DNA of 20,228 bases, taken from positions 1 to 20,228 of IMG/VR virus record IMGVR_UViG_3300031673_000609. One strand, written 5' to 3'. A program made the position numbers and the translations under genes. Source of the DNA: a virus. A model generated the notes under the pieces. That model worked only from the letters and a program-made list of their open reading frames with translations. It was not told the DNA's origin and did not search any database. Below, piece after piece: positions 11,160-20,228 of the stretch (position 1 is the first letter of the stretch; each line of letters starts with the position of its first letter).

Positions 11160-13467
11160 CCTATTACGCCCAAAGAACACCATTCAGGATAAGCCCAAAA
11201 AAAGCGAAATCCTAAAACCGGGAAGAATCAAAAAGATTGGATATCCTGGAAACGTATATAACGTTAGCCCGGCATATGGGAATCTTGCTATAGGAAAACG
11301 GGGCGTATTCCAAAGGTCAGAATATGACCTTGGAGAGGTGGCAAGGGTAATGGACATTGAGGCCTACGTCAGGCAAGCGTTCAACAAACACTCAGAACTA
11401 TGTTTGAAAGAGGGCTATCAGATAAAGTCAAGAAACACAGAAGCAACTGCATATGTAAACAGGAGACTAAGGGAGATAGGAGAGGCTACAGGTAGAACCT
11501 TCGATTCGCTATTGAGGGGCATAGTTTCAAACATGATATCTTTTTCAAATTGCTTCGTAGTAAAAGTAAGAGACAAAAACGCCTCAAGCGGACAGCCAAG
11601 ACTGACTGCCGGAGGAGAAAAAATAGACCCAGTGGCGGGATACTTCATATTAGACCCCACAACAATGGAGATTAAGAGAAACGTACATGGAAAAGTTTAT
11701 GGATATTTACAGAGGATGGTTGGTGTTGGCCTGTACCCTAAGTTCCCACCAGAGAACATGGTACATATGGTATATAATAGGAAAGAAGGTTTTGCTTTTG
11801 GCACTCCTTACATAATACCAGTTTTGGACGACATAAGATCTCTCAGGAGAATGGAAGAGAACATAGAGATGCTTACGTTGTCGCACCTTTATCCACTGTT
11901 TCAGTATATAGTAGGAACGGAAGATCATCCTGCAGAAATTTATGAGGATGGGACCACAGAAGTTGACATAATAAAGCAAGAAATTGAGAACATGCCAACG
12001 GAGGGTAGCATAGTCACCCCAGAGAGGCATGAGATAAAGGTTTTAGGGGCAGAAGGAAAGGCACTACAGGCAGACCCATATTTAAAACATTTTGAGATGA
12101 GAGTTTTGGCCGGCTTAGGTATATCAGAAATAGCTCTTGGAAGAGGGGGGACGGCCAACAGGAACACAGCCGCGGTTATAGACAGGGGCATGCAGGACAG
12201 GTGTAAAGATTTTCAGGACGTAATAGAGGGATACGTTACAGAGTATATCTTTAAAGAACTTCTTTTGGAGGGTGGGTTTGAGATAGACGAAGCTGGCGAT
12301 AACATTGTAAAGCTCGAGTTCAACGAGATAGACATAGACAACCAGATAAAACTAGAAAACCACTCAGTGTTCAAGTATGAGCACGACACCATAACTGAAG
12401 CCGAAGTCAGAGAGTTACTTGGGAAAGACCCAATCACAGAAGAGCAGAGGAAAGACATGTTCTTTGAGAAGGTAACCAAGCCAAGGGCTATAATAATGGC
12501 AGTTGACGAGCCATACACAGCAGAAGCCAAGGCTAACGGAGCGGTTGCTAAGATTTCAAAGGAATCACAGAAAACAAAAGCAACCAACAATAGGGAACAG
12601 CCAACAAATCAGCACGGTACCAAAACAGCAAAAACTAGCGCAAAGCAAGACGGTGGAGAAAACACCGGGAAAGCTAAATTGCTTTTGGACTCCATGGAAG
12701 ACATAAAAAAGTTGACTCACAACAAGGTAGAGGATCCGGACGCCCTAAATCCTCTAGGGGAAGAAGTTGTCAGCGACGTGTATGACCCAAAATATGTAGA
12801 GAAGATGATAGGCGACATTAAGTATTATTGGGACATAACAAAAGAAGACGTATTTGACTATGTCAAACAGACATATATAGAAGAGAATAGAAGTTTTAGG
12901 GAGTTTACACCGGAAAAATTAAAGATGATACTGTTCCTCACTAAGGATTCAATCGTTAGGAGGTCTGGATCATATGTTTTCCAGGCATTCAAGGACGGTA
13001 TAAATAAAGCGGCCAGAGATTCTGGAAGAGAAAACATAAGCCTTAGTGTTGATCCCACCGTAAAGCACAAGTATTTAGAGGAAAGGATAGAACTCTACAC
13101 TACGGGCTTGCTAAGTGATCTTGGGGCACAATTAGTTAGAGAGTTAAACCCCGAATTCTCAGACAAGAAGGAATATAGGGAAACTAGACAGAATGTCATC
13201 CCTACGATTGCGGGAGTCTTTGATGCACTAAAGTACAGGATCAAATTTACCGCGCACACTGAAATCATGAAAGCCTATAATTTCGGTTATGCTCTGGCGA
13301 TGAGAGAATTGGGGTATAAAGATCTTTACGTGAACTTAGCCGCTAACCATTGCAGCAGATGCAAAGAGGCCTCAAGCAAACCCTTATCGTTAGAGTACTT
13401 TTCATTTGAGGATGTAGCACCAGTGCATCCAATGTGTAATTGTACCTATATGATAAGGAAGGGGTAA
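11152..13467 (+). CDS. Portal protein fused to a Mu-F-like head morphogenesis domain (771 aa)
   Basis: Residues about 1-450 look like a phage portal, the dodecameric ring through which DNA enters and leaves the head: FDSLLRGIVSNMISFSNCFV, FPPENMVHMVYNRKEGFAFG, TPYIIPVLDDIRSLRRMEEN, then a helix leading to LGISEIALGRGG. A low-complexity linker (about 465-510, Lys/Thr/Gln/Asn-rich) follows. The C-terminus has the Mu gpF-like signature: HTEIMKAYNFGYALA (from 702), two cysteines at 734 and 737 (HCSRC), then HPMCNC (759-764). Portal and F-like protein are separate genes in most phages, so this is a fusion. Start: ATG with GGAGG upstream, overlapping the previous stop by 8 bp. Confidence 0.92.
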   Translation: MFNLLRPKNTIQDKPKKSEILKPGRIKKIGYPGNVYNVSPAYGNLAIGKRGVFQRSEYDLGEVARVMDIEAYVRQAFNKHSELCLKEGYQIKSRNTEATAYVNRRLREIGEATGRTFDSLLRGIVSNMISFSNCFVVKVRDKNASSGQPRLTAGGEKIDPVAGYFILDPTTMEIKRNVHGKVYGYLQRMVGVGLYPKFPPENMVHMVYNRKEGFAFGTPYIIPVLDDIRSLRRMEENIEMLTLSHLYPLFQYIVGTEDHPAEIYEDGTTEVDIIKQEIENMPTEGSIVTPERHEIKVLGAEGKALQADPYLKHFEMRVLAGLGISEIALGRGGTANRNTAAVIDRGMQDRCKDFQDVIEGYVTEYIFKELLLEGGFEIDEAGDNIVKLEFNEIDIDNQIKLENHSVFKYEHDTITEAEVRELLGKDPITEEQRKDMFFEKVTKPRAIIMAVDEPYTAEAKANGAVAKISKESQKTKATNNREQPTNQHGTKTAKTSAKQDGGENTGKAKLLLDSMEDIKKLTHNKVEDPDALNPLGEEVVSDVYDPKYVEKMIGDIKYYWDITKEDVFDYVKQTYIEENRSFREFTPEKLKMILFLTKDSIVRRSGSYVFQAFKDGINKAARDSGRENISLSVDPTVKHKYLEERIELYTTGLLSDLGAQLVRELNPEFSDKKEYRETRQNVIPTIAGVFDALKYRIKFTAHTEIMKAYNFGYALAMRELGYKDLYVNLAANHCSRCKEASSKPLSLEYFSFEDVAPVHPMCNCTYMIRKG

Positions 13468-14156
13468 TGGTATTCCAACTTAGACCAGAAGACACTAGGC
13501 CATTTCAATATCCAGACGTACAGGATCAAAACTTCCTGGGTTACGATCGTCCAAACGATCGATGGAAGGTAGATGCGTCTGGTATAAAGATCTATGCCTC
13601 TGGTATAAGCGTAGAGCTCGACAAGGACTCTGACAGTGTTGCTGTATGGTCGGCCTCAGGTACACCGGATTTGCCAGTATACATTACAAATCCAATACCG
13701 CTTACGGTTGACCTAAATAAAGACGATGACAGCATATCGATATGGTCTTCATCCGGAACACCAACGATACCCATATATGCCGAAGACCCAATTGAAGTAA
13801 GCATAGTTGACGATTCAGAGCCACTGGAGTTTACCTATAACGAGGTATTGACGGTTCCAAGGCTTGTTGAAACAACTCTTGTAGATTATACTGTACCAAT
13901 TGGAAAAGAATTTTTGTTTACCACAGGGAGGGCAACCGGAGATACGGATGCTGAGTTTTATCTGCAGGTAGATGGAGTAACTAAAGACGGAGCAAGAACT
14001 AGCTGGGAAGAGAGAACAGCCAAGTTTGATATAACCCAAGGATCATTAAGGGTCTCTGGCGGAAGCGTTATAAGAATTAGGGTTTACCACGAAGAGAACA
14101 CGGCCAAGCATGGAAGTGTAGATTTTTGGGGTAGTATAGCTGGAATTTTAAAGTAA
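13467..14156 (+). CDS. Beta-repeat virion protein with C-terminal beta-sandwich (229 aa)
   Basis: The ATG at 13467 overlaps the portal stop (TAATG), behind AAGGAAGGGG; an in-frame TTG at 13440 is inside the portal gene and rejected. Two tandem repeats 32 residues apart are visible: DSVAVWSASGTPDLPVY (56-72) and DSISIWSSSGTPTIPIY (88-104). The C-terminal part (about 125-229) alternates hydrophobic and polar residues with glycine turns (PIGKEFLFTTGRATGD, FYLQVDGVTKDG, GGSVIRIRVYHEE), like a jelly-roll or carbohydrate-binding-like sandwich. It is probably a neck, decoration or adhesin protein. The repeat recurs in the proteins at 14343 and 15773. Confidence 0.72.
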   Translation: MVFQLRPEDTRPFQYPDVQDQNFLGYDRPNDRWKVDASGIKIYASGISVELDKDSDSVAVWSASGTPDLPVYITNPIPLTVDLNKDDDSISIWSSSGTPTIPIYAEDPIEVSIVDDSEPLEFTYNEVLTVPRLVETTLVDYTVPIGKEFLFTTGRATGDTDAEFYLQVDGVTKDGARTSWEERTAKFDITQGSLRVSGGSVIRIRVYHEENTAKHGSVDFWGSIAGILK

Positions 14157-14167
14157 GGAGAAATAAT

Positions 14168-14341
14168 ATGTCAGAGACTCAAGATAGAATAAACAAACTA
14201 AAGCAACAGGTACAATTTGAACAGAAGAAGATACTTTTGACTAACTACGAAATACAGATACTAGAGTTAGAAGACAAGATAGCCTTTACAAAAGAGGCGA
14301 AAACAAAACTAGAACTAGAATTAGAAACCTTAGGAGGGTAA
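14168..14341 (+). CDS. Small coiled-coil protein (57 aa)
   Basis: The ATG at 14168 follows TAAGGAGAAATAAT. The product is MSETQDRINKLKQQVQFEQK, then KILLTNYEIQILELEDKIAF, then TKEAKTKLELELETLGG. It is almost wholly a heptad-patterned helix with no proline, hence a predicted coiled coil. Its central part resembles that of the 75-aa protein at 15553 (LTNYEIQILELED against VNKYDVQIEQLEE), so the two are probably paralogues. Each is followed directly by a beta-repeat protein gene, which suggests it acts as an oligomerisation partner. The stop TAA is one base before the next ATG. Confidence 0.7.
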   Translation: MSETQDRINKLKQQVQFEQKKILLTNYEIQILELEDKIAFTKEAKTKLELELETLGG

Positions 14342-14342
14342 C

Positions 14343-15551
14343 ATGGCTGTATACAAAAGCTCACTACCCGTAAGACACGAAAATCTGGGGGACATTGTAG
14401 TGGGTATAGTCGGTAGCGACAATACTTCTATTGTAGATGTCTTGACAGTCAATGGTTCTTACGGAGCAACACCAAAAGGTATGCCACTCCTTGGAAAGTA
14501 TGAAATTACTCCCACCGTTTATGATGATGGAGATGCCGTTCCTTTGACAGTAGATGCATCAGGTAAGCTTCAGGTAGACGCAGAGATAGTCTTTCCGGCG
14601 AATCAGAACGTAACGGTTGTTAATGCTGCTGGCGCGGCTGCCGTGAACATACAAGATGGTGGAAATACAATAACAATTGATGGTACTCTTACGGGTATCA
14701 CAAATGATGTCAACATAGCAGACGGCGGAAATTCAATTACAGTTGATGCTATTAATCTTGACATTAGAGACCTTGCATATACTCAAGATACAATAGGTAT
14801 TTGGACAAACACAGCTAAAGACGGTTCCGGGACAGACTATCAGCCGATAGTTGATGCTTCTGGTAGGCTTATAGTTAATGTAGAAGCCGGCGGAGCCGCC
14901 AACATAAAGGCTGACGACAGTGCTTTTTCTGTTGGTGTAGATTCGGTTGGTGCCGTAGGATATCTCTTTGATGATGTGGCAACAGACACGGTTGACGAGG
15001 GAGACATTGGCGCTCCTAGGATGACAGCAGACAGAATAGCGCTTTCTATCCTCGACGATGGTACCGATAGACTTGCCCTTGTTAAAGATGGGGATGCTTA
15101 TGGGGCCAGCACAGCTGGTGTAGTTGTGTTTGGTCAGTATGGAACCACAGACTATCAGTCCCTTAAGGTTGATAGCCTTGGTGCTCTTTATGTTAACACC
15201 GGCGTTGTTGGTTCCGTAACGGAAAACGCTGGATCTGTTAACGCGGTTAAAGACACACCAGCCACAGCCGTAACATTTACTCCTGGCGCAAATGTAGAGA
15301 TTCTTGGTGTAACATACGCTGGATCTGGAAAAGCCCAGGTAGACATATACTACGGTACGACATCTTCAGAAGTTAGAAAGCATACGTTCTACACGAGTGC
15401 CGCGAGTCCAAATGTGGACTTTAAGTTCCCCGGAGAAGTTGCTCTCACATCTTCTGATACTATATACGTTTCTGTAACTAACCTTGAAAAAGTTGCATCG
15501 CCTCAGTCAGACTTTACGGCGTATGCTACGATTTCTTACGTGATTGCATAA
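14343..15551 (+). CDS. Large beta-repeat virion protein (402 aa)
   Basis: AGGAGGG lies just before the ATG at 14343. The sequence is beta-rich, with many Asp, Gly, Thr and Val and almost no cysteine. Repeated units are visible: VNIQDGGNTITID (101-113) and VNIADGGNSITVD (123-135); VDASGKLQVD (70-79) and VDASGRLIVN (170-179); and LDIRDLAYTQDTIGIW (139-154), which echoes the repeat of the neighbouring proteins. A segment about 208-240 (LFDDVATDTVDEGDIGAPRM) is of a type common in phage neck or decoration proteins. The last about 100 residues form a separate beta domain (TFTPGANVEILGVTYAGSGK). Probably a virion surface, neck or adhesin protein; inference from composition, repeats and location. 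Confidence 0.72.
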   Translation: MAVYKSSLPVRHENLGDIVVGIVGSDNTSIVDVLTVNGSYGATPKGMPLLGKYEITPTVYDDGDAVPLTVDASGKLQVDAEIVFPANQNVTVVNAAGAAAVNIQDGGNTITIDGTLTGITNDVNIADGGNSITVDAINLDIRDLAYTQDTIGIWTNTAKDGSGTDYQPIVDASGRLIVNVEAGGAANIKADDSAFSVGVDSVGAVGYLFDDVATDTVDEGDIGAPRMTADRIALSILDDGTDRLALVKDGDAYGASTAGVVVFGQYGTTDYQSLKVDSLGALYVNTGVVGSVTENAGSVNAVKDTPATAVTFTPGANVEILGVTYAGSGKAQVDIYYGTTSSEVRKHTFYTSAASPNVDFKFPGEVALTSSDTIYVSVTNLEKVASPQSDFTAYATISYVIA

Positions 15552-15552
15552 C

Positions 15553-15780
15553 ATGTATGAAGAAAGTTATGCCTTACAGTTAAAGAAATATGAACTCGAG
15601 AGGGACGAGCTGGCGCTTAAAAAACGTCAGCTCATCCTAAAGAAAGACGAGATATCTCTTCAAGTAAATAAGTATGATGTACAGATAGAACAGCTAGAAG
15701 AAGAATATAAAGAGAATGAGAAATGTATTGTCTGGATAAAAGAACAGATAAGCAAGGGGAAGATAAGACCAAATGGCTAA
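15553..15780 (+). CDS. Small coiled-coil protein, second copy (75 aa)
   Basis: The ATG at 15553 is one base after the preceding stop (TAACATG) and has no clear ribosome site, so translation is probably coupled to the gene before it; an in-frame TTG at 15544 is inside that gene. The product, MYEESYALQLKKYELERDEL and onward to QIEQLEEEYKENEKCIVWIK, is a long charged helix with leucine-type heptads. It is similar in pattern to the 57-aa protein at 14168 and is likewise followed by a beta-repeat gene, whose ATG lies inside its last codons (8-bp overlap). Confidence 0.7.
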   Translation: MYEESYALQLKKYELERDELALKKRQLILKKDEISLQVNKYDVQIEQLEEEYKENEKCIVWIKEQISKGKIRPNG

Positions 15781-16840
15781 TATAAATTCCACTTTAGATA
15801 CAACCATATGGAGCGAGGACGGACAGACGGCAGTAACAGTTAATGAACTGTCCACTGGCGCTATCGGCCTTAGCGTTTCTCCTGTAGGTGTTTATTTTTC
15901 CAGCGATCCAACACTGTCCGATACTCAGGTATATCCACTTAGGGTTAGTGCGAGCGGAAATCTTTTAACTGAGTCTTCTGTGTACGCCACAGATCTTGAT
16001 ATAAGGGACTTGGATGAGGCTCAGGATAGTATAAGGGCCTATTCTGCTTCCGGATCTCCGTCGTTCGAAGTTTATAATATACACCCGCAGAAGACTATAC
16101 TTACAGATGCTGATGGAAATGATGTAAATATCAATGCCGATGGAAGTCTTCAGGTTACATTTGCTACTGGCGGGTCTTCTATAACTAGAATGATTGAGTT
16201 AAGATACGAGACGACAGTAGGATTAAATACTGTTGATACGTGGTATGACGTTATGGAGTACGCAGTACCATCTGGGTATAGCCTAGAACTTATAGACTTT
16301 AGTTCTCTGGCTGAAAACAACACTTCTAGTGCTCGCGCTATGACAGCACTAAGCCTAGGAGAATATAATATAGCTACGTCTGTCTTTACGGATGGAACAT
16401 CGTATACTATGCCATATTTTGGGGCGGTCATAGAGGCCCATTTACACACCGCTGTAGTCGGAGCGACCACACTTACCATAACATATACAAATGTTGCCGG
16501 CACAGCCGGGAGAACAGCTACCGTAAACATTCCAAACGGTTCAATTGCGGGAGAGTCGTTCATAGCAACCCTAGAAGGAACAGATAGGGGCGTAACAGAC
16601 ATTACCAATGTTACCAAAACTGGAGGAACTTCAGGTGAGATACATCTTCATGGTATTGTTACTGTTTTTAGAGAAAAGATGACAAGTTCATCTCAGACAT
16701 ATCATCAAATAACGTCTAGAGAATCTATAATCATTGGTCAGGGAGAAACTCTTACTCTTGGAATAAAATCAGACCAGAAAGCGGCAGTTAAAAGATATGT
16801 ACACGTCTTAGGACAATTAAGGTCAATCGTAGAGGATTAA
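15773..16840 (+). CDS. Beta-repeat virion protein (355 aa)
   Basis: The ATG at 15773 overlaps the preceding gene by 8 bp. The N-terminal third holds one copy of the shared repeat, LDIRDL then DSIRAYSASGSPSFEVY (75-101), with VSASGNLL and INADGSLQV turns nearby. The C-terminal two thirds (about 135-355) look like a large beta-sandwich: YAVPSGYSLELIDFSSLAEN, a central TTLTITYTNVAGTAGRTATV, and a closing IGQGETLTLGIKSDQ. By composition and place it is a virion surface, neck or tail-associated protein. It is the third beta-repeat gene in 3.4 kb and shares the repeat with those at 13467 and 14343. Confidence 0.72.
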   Translation: MANINSTLDTTIWSEDGQTAVTVNELSTGAIGLSVSPVGVYFSSDPTLSDTQVYPLRVSASGNLLTESSVYATDLDIRDLDEAQDSIRAYSASGSPSFEVYNIHPQKTILTDADGNDVNINADGSLQVTFATGGSSITRMIELRYETTVGLNTVDTWYDVMEYAVPSGYSLELIDFSSLAENNTSSARAMTALSLGEYNIATSVFTDGTSYTMPYFGAVIEAHLHTAVVGATTLTITYTNVAGTAGRTATVNIPNGSIAGESFIATLEGTDRGVTDITNVTKTGGTSGEIHLHGIVTVFREKMTSSSQTYHQITSRESIIIGQGETLTLGIKSDQKAAVKRYVHVLGQLRSIVED

Positions 16841-16841
16841 T

Positions 16842-17594
16842 ATGAATCAACAAATATCATGGACAGAATATAAGCAAATATGCATCACAGACAAAAATAT
16901 CCCAGTTCAGTATCTGGACAAGGGAACGTGGTACTATATATTTGCTGTTGATGATACTATATCATATGCTCTCGAGATGAGTAAGGGCGACCCAAGAAAT
17001 GCTGACCAAATAGATTTTGAAGACAACTACAAGGCCACAGCAAACCAACCAATTCATCCATCTGATCTTGATGGAAGAATGTATACCAGGTCTGGATCTA
17101 GGCCTCTAAACAAAACAACTTACTTCACAATGATAGGCGATGGGGATGGAACTATAGGGGATGGCAATACCCTTGACTGGGACTTCTCAAATTCAGACGA
17201 TGAAGTAGCCGCTCCAAGCGGATATAAAAGAAAGAGGAAAGAAATACATTTTATAGATGATATGAACGTTAAAGAGGGTGCAGTTTATTTTCACGGAGCA
17301 CCAAAAGGATGCTATGCTGACTTCTATGTACTATGTCCTTCAGGTCAATATTATCTAAAAAATGATGGCACTCCAGCATTGGCAGAAGAAGATACAATTA
17401 TAGACCACTTCCTATCTCACCACTTTATGTGCGGAGATTGCCCTATGGGAGATGAGCTTAATACAGAAGAAGCTAGTATGGAAATACCTTCTATATATAA
17501 GTATTGGCTAGAGGTAACAACGCCGGACGCAGATGAGACTTCCCATGGCTATCTTAGCATGGAGGTCTATAGGGCAAGGACGGTAGTACTGTGA
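16842..17594 (+). CDS. Probable structural protein (250 aa)
   Basis: The ATG at 16842 comes one base after the previous stop, with only a weak GAGG upstream. The product begins MNQQISWTEYKQICITDKNI. It is rich in Tyr, Asp, Asn and Gly, with a Gly/Asp-rich loop (MIGDGDGTIGDGNTLDWDFS, about 96-115), then a basic stretch KRKRKE and a beta-rich C-terminal half. Two cysteines sit close in CGDCPMGDE (about 205). It ends with LSMEVYRARTVV, a pattern like the edge strand of a beta-sandwich. No enzyme motif was seen. It probably belongs with the preceding virion proteins. Confidence 0.65.
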   Translation: MNQQISWTEYKQICITDKNIPVQYLDKGTWYYIFAVDDTISYALEMSKGDPRNADQIDFEDNYKATANQPIHPSDLDGRMYTRSGSRPLNKTTYFTMIGDGDGTIGDGNTLDWDFSNSDDEVAAPSGYKRKRKEIHFIDDMNVKEGAVYFHGAPKGCYADFYVLCPSGQYYLKNDGTPALAEEDTIIDHFLSHHFMCGDCPMGDELNTEEASMEIPSIYKYWLEVTTPDADETSHGYLSMEVYRARTVVL

Positions 17595-18082
17595 TAAAGG
17601 GTGACATAATTTTAGCAAGAAACAAGGGGATGTTATTTGATAAGATAAGAGAAGCAATGGGATCAGAATACGATCATGTTGGAATAATGATTACTGAGAA
17701 CACTCTTATAGACGCAACACCAACAAGCGGGGTAGCAGTAAGAAGCTTAGAAGTTTTTAATGGGCTAGACGTGCAAGCATACAGATTGAAAGATGAATAT
17801 AGTCCAAATATAGACAAAATGGTAGAGTATTGTCTAGATAAAGTAGGTAGCAAATACGATATTTTACAAACAATTTGCCTTTACTTTCTCATGATACTGG
17901 GAATAAAGAAGACTCTAAATCCTATTGATGTAGGAAATGCTTTTGTGTGTAGCGAACTAATAGCTCAAGCAGCGGTATATTCAGGGTTTAATTTTGACGA
18001 GAGTATGGCGATAGACAGAATCACTCCGGCCGATATAGCAGGGTCGGACAAAGTAATTAAAGTAGGAGAAAGCAATGCCTAA
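17591..18082 (+). CDS. Papain-like hydrolase of the YiiX / permuted NlpC-P60 type (163 aa)
   Basis: The N-terminus reads MIKGDIILARNKGMLFDKIR, then SEYDHVGIMI with His29, and later NAFVCSELIAQA with Cys120. This order (G-D-I-I at the start, D-H-x-G-I, then F-x-C-S-E-L) is that of YiiX/YebB-like and related permuted NlpC/P60 enzymes, in which histidine precedes the catalytic cysteine. Family members are cysteine peptidases or amidases, some acting on peptidoglycan and some on other amide or ester bonds; the substrate here is unknown. There is a short hydrophobic run at about 94-105 (TICLYFLMILGI). GTG start, overlapping the previous stop (GTGA). Its site among virion genes suggests a virion-linked cell-wall enzyme. 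Confidence 0.75.
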   Translation: MIKGDIILARNKGMLFDKIREAMGSEYDHVGIMITENTLIDATPTSGVAVRSLEVFNGLDVQAYRLKDEYSPNIDKMVEYCLDKVGSKYDILQTICLYFLMILGIKKTLNPIDVGNAFVCSELIAQAAVYSGFNFDESMAIDRITPADIAGSDKVIKVGESNA

Positions 18083-18347
18083 AATACAGTTAATTACAGA
18101 CGGACACCCAAACAACACGACACTGATAATAGACGGTGTTGACGTTACGGATGAGTATACGGTAGGGTGGATAACCTTAGAAGCTTTTAGTCATGATCCT
18201 CTGGAAATAAAGAGGCCGTACTTTAAGCTTCAATATGGTATTATAGAAGACAATCCATTAGATCAGAAAACGATTGAGACAGCAGTAAAGACGATTGTTG
18301 TTAAGCCTGACGATGCTGGTGGAATGCAAACATCGATAGAAAAATAG
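18075..18347 (+). CDS. Small protein of unknown function (90 aa)
   Basis: The ATG at 18075 overlaps the preceding gene by 8 bp behind GTAGGAGAAAG. The product begins MPKIQLITDGHPNNTTLIID and continues GVDVTDEYTVGWITLEAFSH. It looks like a small beta-rich domain with a conserved-looking IDGVDVTD turn, then a C-terminal helix. The pattern (a strand, a short I-D-G turn, strands) recalls small phage head proteins, but I cannot assign it. It is probably part of the head-gene operon. Confidence 0.65.
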   Translation: MPKIQLITDGHPNNTTLIIDGVDVTDEYTVGWITLEAFSHDPLEIKRPYFKLQYGIIEDNPLDQKTIETAVKTIVVKPDDAGGMQTSIEK

Positions 18348-18356
18348 GAGGTAATC

Positions 18357-18539
18357 ATGGCAGGAGCAACTATGGGCGGAGCCGGTCGTGGCGGCGGAAC
18401 AATATACGACCCCAGGCAAAAGGCCAAGGAAAAGAAAGGAAAGACGGGTTACTGGCCATCAGTCCAGGCTGACCTAAATAAACAGTCGGCTGCAAAGGCC
18501 AAGGGAAAGTCCGGTAACTCAAAAAAAGTAGGGAGATAA
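18357..18539 (+). CDS. Small basic Gly/Lys-rich protein (60 aa)
   Basis: A strong TAGGAGGTAATC ribosome site precedes the ATG at 18357. The product starts MAGATMGGAGRGGGTIYDPR and continues with a Lys/Ala/Ser-rich basic tail. There is no hydrophobic segment and the low complexity suggests disorder. No known family. Composition matches the small basic proteins at 5517-7467. It lies directly before the prohead protease gene, two bases from it, so it is probably co-expressed with head assembly proteins. Confidence 0.62.
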   Translation: MAGATMGGAGRGGGTIYDPRQKAKEKKGKTGYWPSVQADLNKQSAAKAKGKSGNSKKVGR

Positions 18540-18541
18540 TT

Positions 18542-20044
18542 ATGAAGAAGGTTATAGACTTATATGATAGCTTCCCTATCTCTACTAAAGTGAATGAGGG
18601 AAATAAACAATTTGTTTTTTCAGACTCTGGTGACGTAAGAAGCGGAACAAGCCTAATATGCAATGTAGCTGCGTCTCACGCTGGGACGTTGATAAATAAT
18701 AGGATATACCCACCAGATAAGATGAGTAAGGGCATAAAAAGCTGGACCTCTCCCTATAAAAAGCCAGTACTTGTCAACCACGACGAGGAAGGGGCTCCAA
18801 TAGGAAGGGTTATTAAGGCAAAGTATGTCAAAACTCCTAAAGCAATGGACGGTAAGGAATACTCTCCAATACTTAAGCCCACAGAGGGCTATGGATTTGT
18901 AGATCTTACAGTAAAGATAACAGATCAAGAGGCCATTCAGAGAATTATGGATGGCAGATACGAAACAGTATCTGTGCGCATGAGCACTGATCACGCTTAT
19001 TGTTCTGTGTGCGATACCGACTGGGCAGATGAAGGACCGTGTGAACATTCGCCTGGCAAGAAGTACGATGGAAAATTAGCTTATATGACTACAGGTGACT
19101 TGACCTACCGTGAGGTATCTTTCGTAAATATACCCGCTGATGAATTTGCAAAGGTGGAAGGGGCCACATTTGAAGATCAGAAAGGTGGAGATCCCGTGGA
19201 CGTTAAGATATATGCTAATAACGCAGAAGAAAAATTTCTCTGCGATATGAACGATGAAAAACATAGCAATCTATATGATTATTTAAGAGGTGGATACGAC
19301 GAAGAGGAAGACACAATCTCCCACCTCATTGATAAGGCTATTACGAAAGACGGTGAATCAAAGGAGGCTCAGATGTCAAAAGAACAAGATCTGACCAAAG
19401 ACCAGCTTGTCGAAATGGATTCTGTAAAAGAACTGATCCAGGAGGCAAAAGACGGAGTCGCCAAGGAATGTGAAGACCAACTTAAGCAACTTAAAGAGGA
19501 ATGTGAGAAAATCACGAAAGATTCTTCTTCTGAGGACCTTACGAAACAGTTGGACGAGGCCAGTGAAAAGCTTAATGCTGCCATTGATGCCCAGACAGCT
19601 TTGTCGAAAGAAAAAGAAACTATTGCCGAAGAAAGGGACAGTCTGAAAGAAGAGCTCGGCAAAAGAGACGAAGAAAGAACAACACTCCTTGATGAAAACG
19701 TTTCTCTTAACTCTGAACTACATAAATTAAACGCCGAAAGGTTGTTTGACCTTAAATCAGAACTTAAGAAGCCAGACGTAGCTGGAATTAAGACGATCGA
19801 AGATCGCGACAAGAAAGTTGATGAGTTTGCCCAGAGAAGTATTGAATCTCTCAAGGATCAGATAGGCGATCTTATTGTAGAGAAAAATGCAACTCCTGGA
19901 GCCATCAAAGCGTCTGTACAAGTTAGCAATCCAGGCGTAGAACACGAAGACAGTGGAGTTAAAACAGATAAGATAAAGACAAAGAAAGAAACTAAGATTG
20001 AAACTCTCGATAGACTATTCAACGCCAAGAAAGACGCAGAATAA
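18542..20044 (+). CDS. Prohead protease fused to a coiled-coil scaffold (500 aa)
   Basis: The N-terminal domain (about 35-210) has the pattern of phage prohead proteases: NNRIYPPDKM, KKPVLVNHDEEGAPIGRVIK with His80, YETVSVRMSTD with Ser144, and REVSFVNIPADEFA. His80 and Ser144 are the likely catalytic pair of a serine protease. An inserted CSVC (154-157) and CEH (167-169) suggest a zinc site. After an acidic linker (about 215-277) the rest is a long Glu/Lys/Leu coiled coil (about 280-430), typical of a scaffold, ending KIETLDRLFNAKKDAE. Such enzymes cut the scaffold and capsid ends during maturation. Start: ATG two bases after the previous stop, behind GGGAGA. Confidence 0.9.
   Translation: MKKVIDLYDSFPISTKVNEGNKQFVFSDSGDVRSGTSLICNVAASHAGTLINNRIYPPDKMSKGIKSWTSPYKKPVLVNHDEEGAPIGRVIKAKYVKTPKAMDGKEYSPILKPTEGYGFVDLTVKITDQEAIQRIMDGRYETVSVRMSTDHAYCSVCDTDWADEGPCEHSPGKKYDGKLAYMTTGDLTYREVSFVNIPADEFAKVEGATFEDQKGGDPVDVKIYANNAEEKFLCDMNDEKHSNLYDYLRGGYDEEEDTISHLIDKAITKDGESKEAQMSKEQDLTKDQLVEMDSVKELIQEAKDGVAKECEDQLKQLKEECEKITKDSSSEDLTKQLDEASEKLNAAIDAQTALSKEKETIAEERDSLKEELGKRDEERTTLLDENVSLNSELHKLNAERLFDLKSELKKPDVAGIKTIEDRDKKVDEFAQRSIESLKDQIGDLIVEKNATPGAIKASVQVSNPGVEHEDSGVKTDKIKTKKETKIETLDRLFNAKKDAE
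19361..19367 (+). promoter_or_regulatory. Internal ribosome site inside the protease gene
   Basis: AAGGAGG, preceded by a further A, is a near-perfect Shine-Dalgarno site. It lies 5 nt before an ATG (19373) that is in the protease reading frame. Its placement exactly between the linker and the coiled coil argues against chance. Confidence 0.7.
19373..20044 (+). CDS. Nested scaffold protein translated from an internal start (223 aa)
   Basis: This is the C-terminal part of the protease gene read in the same frame from the ATG at codon 278. It starts MSKEQDLTKDQLVEMDSVKE and consists of the coiled-coil region and C-terminal tail only. It has its own ribosome site (AAGGAGG, 19361-19367, spacer 5). 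The arrangement is that of lambda C/Nu3, in which a protease gene contains an in-frame scaffold gene so that much more scaffold than protease is made. The scaffold would fill the prohead and be removed by the protease. Production of the shorter product is inferred from the ribosome site and the domain boundary. Confidence 0.7.
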   Translation: MSKEQDLTKDQLVEMDSVKELIQEAKDGVAKECEDQLKQLKEECEKITKDSSSEDLTKQLDEASEKLNAAIDAQTALSKEKETIAEERDSLKEELGKRDEERTTLLDENVSLNSELHKLNAERLFDLKSELKKPDVAGIKTIEDRDKKVDEFAQRSIESLKDQIGDLIVEKNATPGAIKASVQVSNPGVEHEDSGVKTDKIKTKKETKIETLDRLFNAKKDAE

Positions 20045-20082
20045 GAGAGTTTTATTAGGTTAATTAAAAAGGAGGATTAATA

Positions 20083-20228
20083 ATGGCTCAAGATAGATCA
20101 GCTAACCAGAATGTAAACAGGATTCCTCGCGGCTATGAAAGAACACAAGGGCTGCTTGAAATCTCAAAAGGTGAAAGGCCTGCACTGGAGCTTAAACCCG
20201 CACAGTATCTTCATGTTATTAGAGAAGA
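20083..20228 (+). CDS. Probable major capsid protein, N-terminal part (cut by window end)
   Basis: The ATG at 20083 follows AAAAAGGAGGATTAAT, one of the strongest ribosome sites in the window, as expected for a very abundant protein. Only the first 48 residues are present: MAQDRSANQNVNRIPRGYER, then TQGLLEISKGERPALELKPA and QYLHVIRE. In most tailed phages the capsid gene directly follows protease and scaffold, which is the basis of the call. The visible part carries no diagnostic capsid motif, and a decoration protein is possible. Confidence 0.5.
   Translation, partial: MAQDRSANQNVNRIPRGYERTQGLLEISKGERPALELKPAQYLHVIRE

Follow-up and report, generated by a model that had tools for sequence, protein, structure and literature searches.

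A Protease-Scaffold Gene with a Probable Internal Start Site

The window, that is, the whole stretch of viral DNA analyzed (20,228 bases), carries an open reading frame at 18542–20044, on the plus strand like the next gene and the ribosome-binding sites of both, which encodes a protein of 500 amino acids (56.0 kDa) composed of a predicted prohead protease, an acidic linker, and a coiled-coil scaffold. The protease domain covers about residues 1–200 (18542–19141), as judged from invariant columns, a structural model, and a match to T4 gp21, and is followed by the linker at about residues 206–277 (19157–19372; pI of 4.3 for residues 205–277) and by a helical, coiled-coil C-terminal part. The full-length start at 18542 is served by a ribosome-binding site (RBS), AGGGAG, at 18530–18535. 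A second RBS, AAGGAGG, lies at 19361–19367, in the sequence AAAGGAGG, which begins at 19360, and is separated by the 5-base spacer CTCAG from an ATG at 19373. This ATG is codon 278 (Met278) and is in frame with the main start, as (19373 − 18542)/3 equals 277. It opens a nested reading frame (19373–20044) for a predicted free scaffold of 223 amino acids and 25.1 kDa. The calculated duplex with the anti-Shine–Dalgarno (SD) sequence was stronger at the nested start than at the main start (−11.6 versus −8.9 kcal/mol). The preliminary description of this DNA had placed an AAGGAGG 5 bases upstream of an ATG in the same frame, and the coordinates and the frame confirmed this exactly.

The nested site is not beyond chance when the window sequence is taken alone. 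AAGGAGG was observed only twice in the window, whereas shuffled sequences would contain 5.2 copies; apart from the nested site, it is found at 20069–20075, as the RBS of the next gene, which starts at 20084. At least two AAGGAGG-N(3–9)-RTG sites occurred in 23 of 100 window shuffles, and synonymous-codon shuffling of the window gene reached the observed score in 16% of the trials. These values would also fit a purine-rich stretch that simply coded for an acidic/basic (Lys-Glu) linker and an ATG that coded for an ordinary methionine, with the scaffold freed only by proteolysis of the fusion protein. As a single sequence left room for chance, the gene was compared with its relatives.

Protease Domain and Gene Neighborhood

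An AlphaFold2 model built from 37 sequences was confident for residues 1–200, disordered for residues 271–292 (pLDDT below 50), and contained long helices in residues 287–407. Met278 thus falls within a low-confidence, disordered joint ahead of the long helix. The preliminary description had located the site precisely at the boundary between linker and coil, which was nearly right, the start lying within this disordered segment. In a structural comparison of the model with VIA-align 2, T4 gp21 was the best match (Z of 12.3, rmsd of 3.0, 139 residues), followed by herpesvirus proteases (Z of 5–7.8), with an identity of about 8–15% over the aligned part. Foldseek alone ranked the HCMV protease first, with a weak E-value of 0.04. 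A Pfam search of the window protein gave no protease match, including none to S49, a sequence search of solved structures returned only coiled-coil matches, and aligning the profile directly to that of T4 gp21 gave a weak result. Since these comparisons were negative or weak, the fold assignment is based on the predicted model, in which the N-terminal domain resembles a prohead protease of the gp21/herpesvirus type.

Three candidate catalytic residues, H80 (18779–18781), S144 (18971–18973), and H169 (19046–19048), were invariant in the 37 sequences. The hhalign program paired S144 with S140 of T4 gp21, although weakly (E-value of 0.011, probability of 4%), and left H80 unpaired. H169 lies 25 residues past S144, the distance at which T4 gp21 and the herpesvirus proteases carry a third catalytic residue. 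The same histidine closes a C154-x2-C157-x9-C167-x-H169 motif (residues 154–169, 19001–19048), which was likewise invariant in the 37 relatives and resembles a metal-binding insertion within the protease. H169 may be a metal ligand instead of the third catalytic residue.

The gene order is portal upstream, protease-scaffold, a small head gene, and capsid. The head gene is truncated by the window end (20084–20228), and a second contig (L001), in which the protein is 100% identical, extends past the window to the complete head gene of 261 amino acids (L001 2561–3346) and the major capsid protein. The product of the head gene matched PHROG 673, annotated "head scaffolding protein", with an E-value of 2.4e-6; no Pfam family matched it, and no long coiled coil was seen in it by eye. 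We rejected this gene as the only scaffold. It may still act as a helper, so that scaffold work might be shared between genes, and by its position it may encode a decoration protein. The major capsid protein (L001 3391–4710) is extended at its N-terminus by about 58 residues, which are absent from the capsid proteins of Bacillus phage KLEB27-3 and Moorella phage MTATph1 and might act as a propeptide for the protease. At L062, a locus further removed, the protease is encoded by itself (244 amino acids). The capsid reading frame after it begins with a stretch that, by eye, appears helical, and the scaffold part might there belong to the capsid protein in the HK97 fashion. Upstream of the window gene, about 5 kb with some seven reading frames (13440–18539) separate the portal from the protease, unlike in KLEB27-3 and MTATph1, where the protease gene directly follows the portal gene. 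Four of these reading frames had no PHROG match, and one (17591–18082) matched Peptidase_C92. A gene for a cold-shock domain protein (PF00313, E-value of 6e-28) was found at 1220–1465, close to the window's left edge.

Conservation of the Nested Start in Close Relatives

The close set consisted of 12 distinct lineages, namely the window's own and eleven others whose proteins are 48–66% identical to the window protein; a near relative (L018) that stops short of the site was left out of the counts. AAGGAGG, the 5-base spacer, and an in-frame start were kept in all 12 lineages, with ATG as the nested start codon in 4 and GTG in 8. The encoded peptides varied (KEAQM, KEDQM, KEEDV, KEDEV, KEEVV, and KEEIV). 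The start residue thus switches between Met and Val and yet always remains a start codon, which is difficult to reconcile with an ordinary methionine in a coding linker. The choice of codons at the site points in the same direction. Lys-Glu (K274-E275) was coded AAG GAG in 12 of 12 lineages, in genes where AAG accounts for 26–74% of the Lys codons and GAG for 18–47% of the Glu codons. Among the 134 conserved columns with degenerate codons, only three used a single codon in all lineages, and two of these were the AAG and GAG of the RBS, while nearly all the other conserved columns varied; the probability of this by chance was 3e-4. Per-sequence tests by synonymous shuffling were weak in this clade (p of about 0.02–0.2), and their combined Fisher values ignore shared descent. 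In every lineage, the nested RBS was the stronger of the two, with −11.4 to −12.2 kcal/mol against −6.4 to −9.5 kcal/mol for the main RBS.

Some bacterial frameshifts are stimulated by internal SD-like sequences, and the site might accordingly have served to stimulate a programmed frameshift. Frames −1 and +1 were closed within 37 codons, often at once, in all 12 close relatives; we give this explanation practically no chance and rejected it.

Recurrence of the Site in Distant Relatives

A tblastn search detected homologues in KLEB27-3, MTATph1, and, weakly, Acinetobacter phage ME3, in each case between the portal and capsid genes. Viral contigs and genomes were also scanned with profiles, which returned partly overlapping sets of 66, 47, 20, and 4 loci, the last set from contigs of Paenibacillus, Oceanobacillus, Alicyclobacillus, and a Lithacetigena MAG. 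As the per-sequence shuffle test had low power, and as its protease-region control was contaminated in the two distant clades, where the true main start falls inside the stop-to-stop frames, it was replaced by a comparison of frames and regions. Among the distant relatives (about 26–34% identical), a good RBS with an in-frame start at the protease/coiled-coil joint was found in 20 of 22 KLEB27-3-like genes and in 13 of 16 Paenibacillus-like genes, which brings the three clades to 45 of 50, a count that ignores shared descent. In the same 50 genes, such sites occurred in frame +1 of the joint in 14, in frame +2 in 1, in the protease domain in 5, and at the C-terminus in 1; we read the frame +1 sites as a sign of the purine-rich composition of the linker. 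The five genes below the threshold mostly have weaker or longer-spaced sites. The predicted nested products range from 172 to 301 amino acids; in KLEB27-3, the predicted nested start is the GTG of codon 256 (L002 6640).

Across the relatives, the RBS is coded in all three codon phases, the start is ATG, GTG, or TTG, and the peptides at the distant sites are diverse (EGVSSM, ERSDPKM, KGDSTL, KEESIV, EGSETNM, and EGGTQDM). The recurrence of the site in other codon phases and with other peptides indicates that the nucleotides are selected rather than the protein. The codon columns and the phase changes led us to reject constraint at the protein level as the cause of the site, and from these alignments the nested start is considered to be conserved beyond such constraint. 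The preliminary description had asked whether the RBS and Met278 are conserved among relatives: the start codon is kept as ATG, GTG, or TTG, the methionine itself is not, and the exact AAGGAGG is kept throughout only in the close clade.

One relative is consistent with mere linker coding, as MTATph1 (L003 5971–7311) has protease and coil fused without a clear RBS between them, and its scaffold may be released by cleavage only; ME3 has only a weak internal site. Release by cutting is also known for the herpesvirus UL26 protein, which frees its scaffold part (VP21) in this way (PMC12474303). Set against codons that do not vary and against clades that build the RBS in other phases and peptides, an incidental site in linker codons appears unlikely. 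Another explanation starts from the general idea that internal SD-like sequences slow ribosomes. The sequence might then be kept for pausing at the domain joint, where it is indeed located, giving the protease time to fold before the coil, rather than for initiation. A pausing site would not require a start codon at a constant distance. In 45 of the 50 genes, however, an in-frame ATG, GTG, or TTG is present, out-of-frame ones being much rarer, and we therefore regard pausing as very improbable.

Proposed Assembly Pathway

The conserved start and good RBS at the joint support the earlier reading of two products, a protease-scaffold and a free scaffold, from one gene. We propose, with a probability of roughly 0.86, that the gene carries an in-frame internal RBS and start, so that one mRNA yields the fusion protein and the free scaffold, which co-assemble before the protease clears the core. 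Initiation at 18542 would give the protease-scaffold of 56 kDa, and initiation at 19373 the free scaffold of 25 kDa. Their common C-terminal part would let the two co-assemble within the head as it grows, with the core formed by the abundant free scaffold and the protease brought in by the rarer fusion protein. Once the shell has closed, the protease would cut the scaffold and itself, making the entry of DNA possible. These steps are drawn by analogy from lambda C/Nu3, Mu I/Z, and herpesvirus UL26/UL26.5. We infer that both proteins are produced and that their ratio is important; the stronger nested RBS would fit a scaffold in excess of the protease, as heads need.

Comparison with Known Systems

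The nested protease/scaffold arrangement has precedents in other phages and in herpesviruses. As predicted for the window gene, the scaffold start of lambda C/Nu3 lies in frame within the protease gene, with a common C-terminus, and the genes that follow are D (decoration) and E (capsid). The likeness to lambda drawn in the preliminary description holds for this nested start; it probably does not extend to the protease, as lambda C is annotated as an S49-family peptidase, whereas the window protease is modeled with a gp21/herpesvirus-like fold. Mu I/Z also has a nested in-frame scaffold start with its own RBS, as do the Mu-like phages KS10 and PaMx73, the nested start of the latter being thought to be a Val codon, Val177 (PMC2628397, PMC4378225). 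The likeness of Mu and its relatives to the window family is one of arrangement, with no sequence link found. The predicted nested products resemble lambda Nu3 (201 amino acids) and Mu Z (183 amino acids) in size, and under the same scoring the nested RBSs of these two (−6.9 and −7.4 kcal/mol) were weaker than those of the close lineages. T4 differs from the window gene in that its scaffold, gp22, has a gene of its own. An internal start has been noted in T4 gene 21, but it lies 22 codons in and not at a scaffold joint.

A 2007 map of Bacillus phage 0305phi8-36 labels a "protease with nested scaffold gene" as well as a putative head decoration gene (PMC2147016). The arrangement is the same as that of the window gene, a likeness drawn from the map label only, in a distantly related large-phage lineage; the portal and head proteins of ME3 are annotated as similar to those of 0305phi8-36. 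In herpesvirus UL26/UL26.5, the in-frame 3′ part codes for the scaffold as a gene of its own (PMC12474303). The N-terminal protease is, according to the model, of the same fold class as that of the window gene (Z of 5–7.8), and with fold and layout taken together, UL26/UL26.5 is the closest to the window gene, although a eukaryotic virus has no bacterial RBS to share.

Our analysis adds comparative evidence for the window family, the recoding of the site in different phases, and the pairing of the nested start with a gp21/herpesvirus-type protease fold, so that a single phage gene would combine a herpesvirus-like protease and a nested scaffold. The annotations examined contain no nested scaffold (KLEB27-3 gp014 is a "prohead protease", and the MTATph1 and ME3 proteins are "hypothetical protein"), and the scaffold of this phage group has thus been overlooked; a literature search found no paper on MTATph1, and a search aimed at KLEB27-3 found none matching that phage. 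More tentatively, and with considerable doubt, we suggest that a large-phage family, in which several members have links to Bacillota, combines the gp21/herpesvirus-type protease and a nested scaffold in the UL26/UL26.5 layout, conserved through repeated recoding of the RBS. A start signal selected within a coding sequence while its phase and peptide change would be useful for finding nested genes elsewhere. If the UL26/UL26.5 layout does occur in these phages, the nested layout would be old in the herpesvirus/tailed-phage head lineage and not an oddity of lambda.
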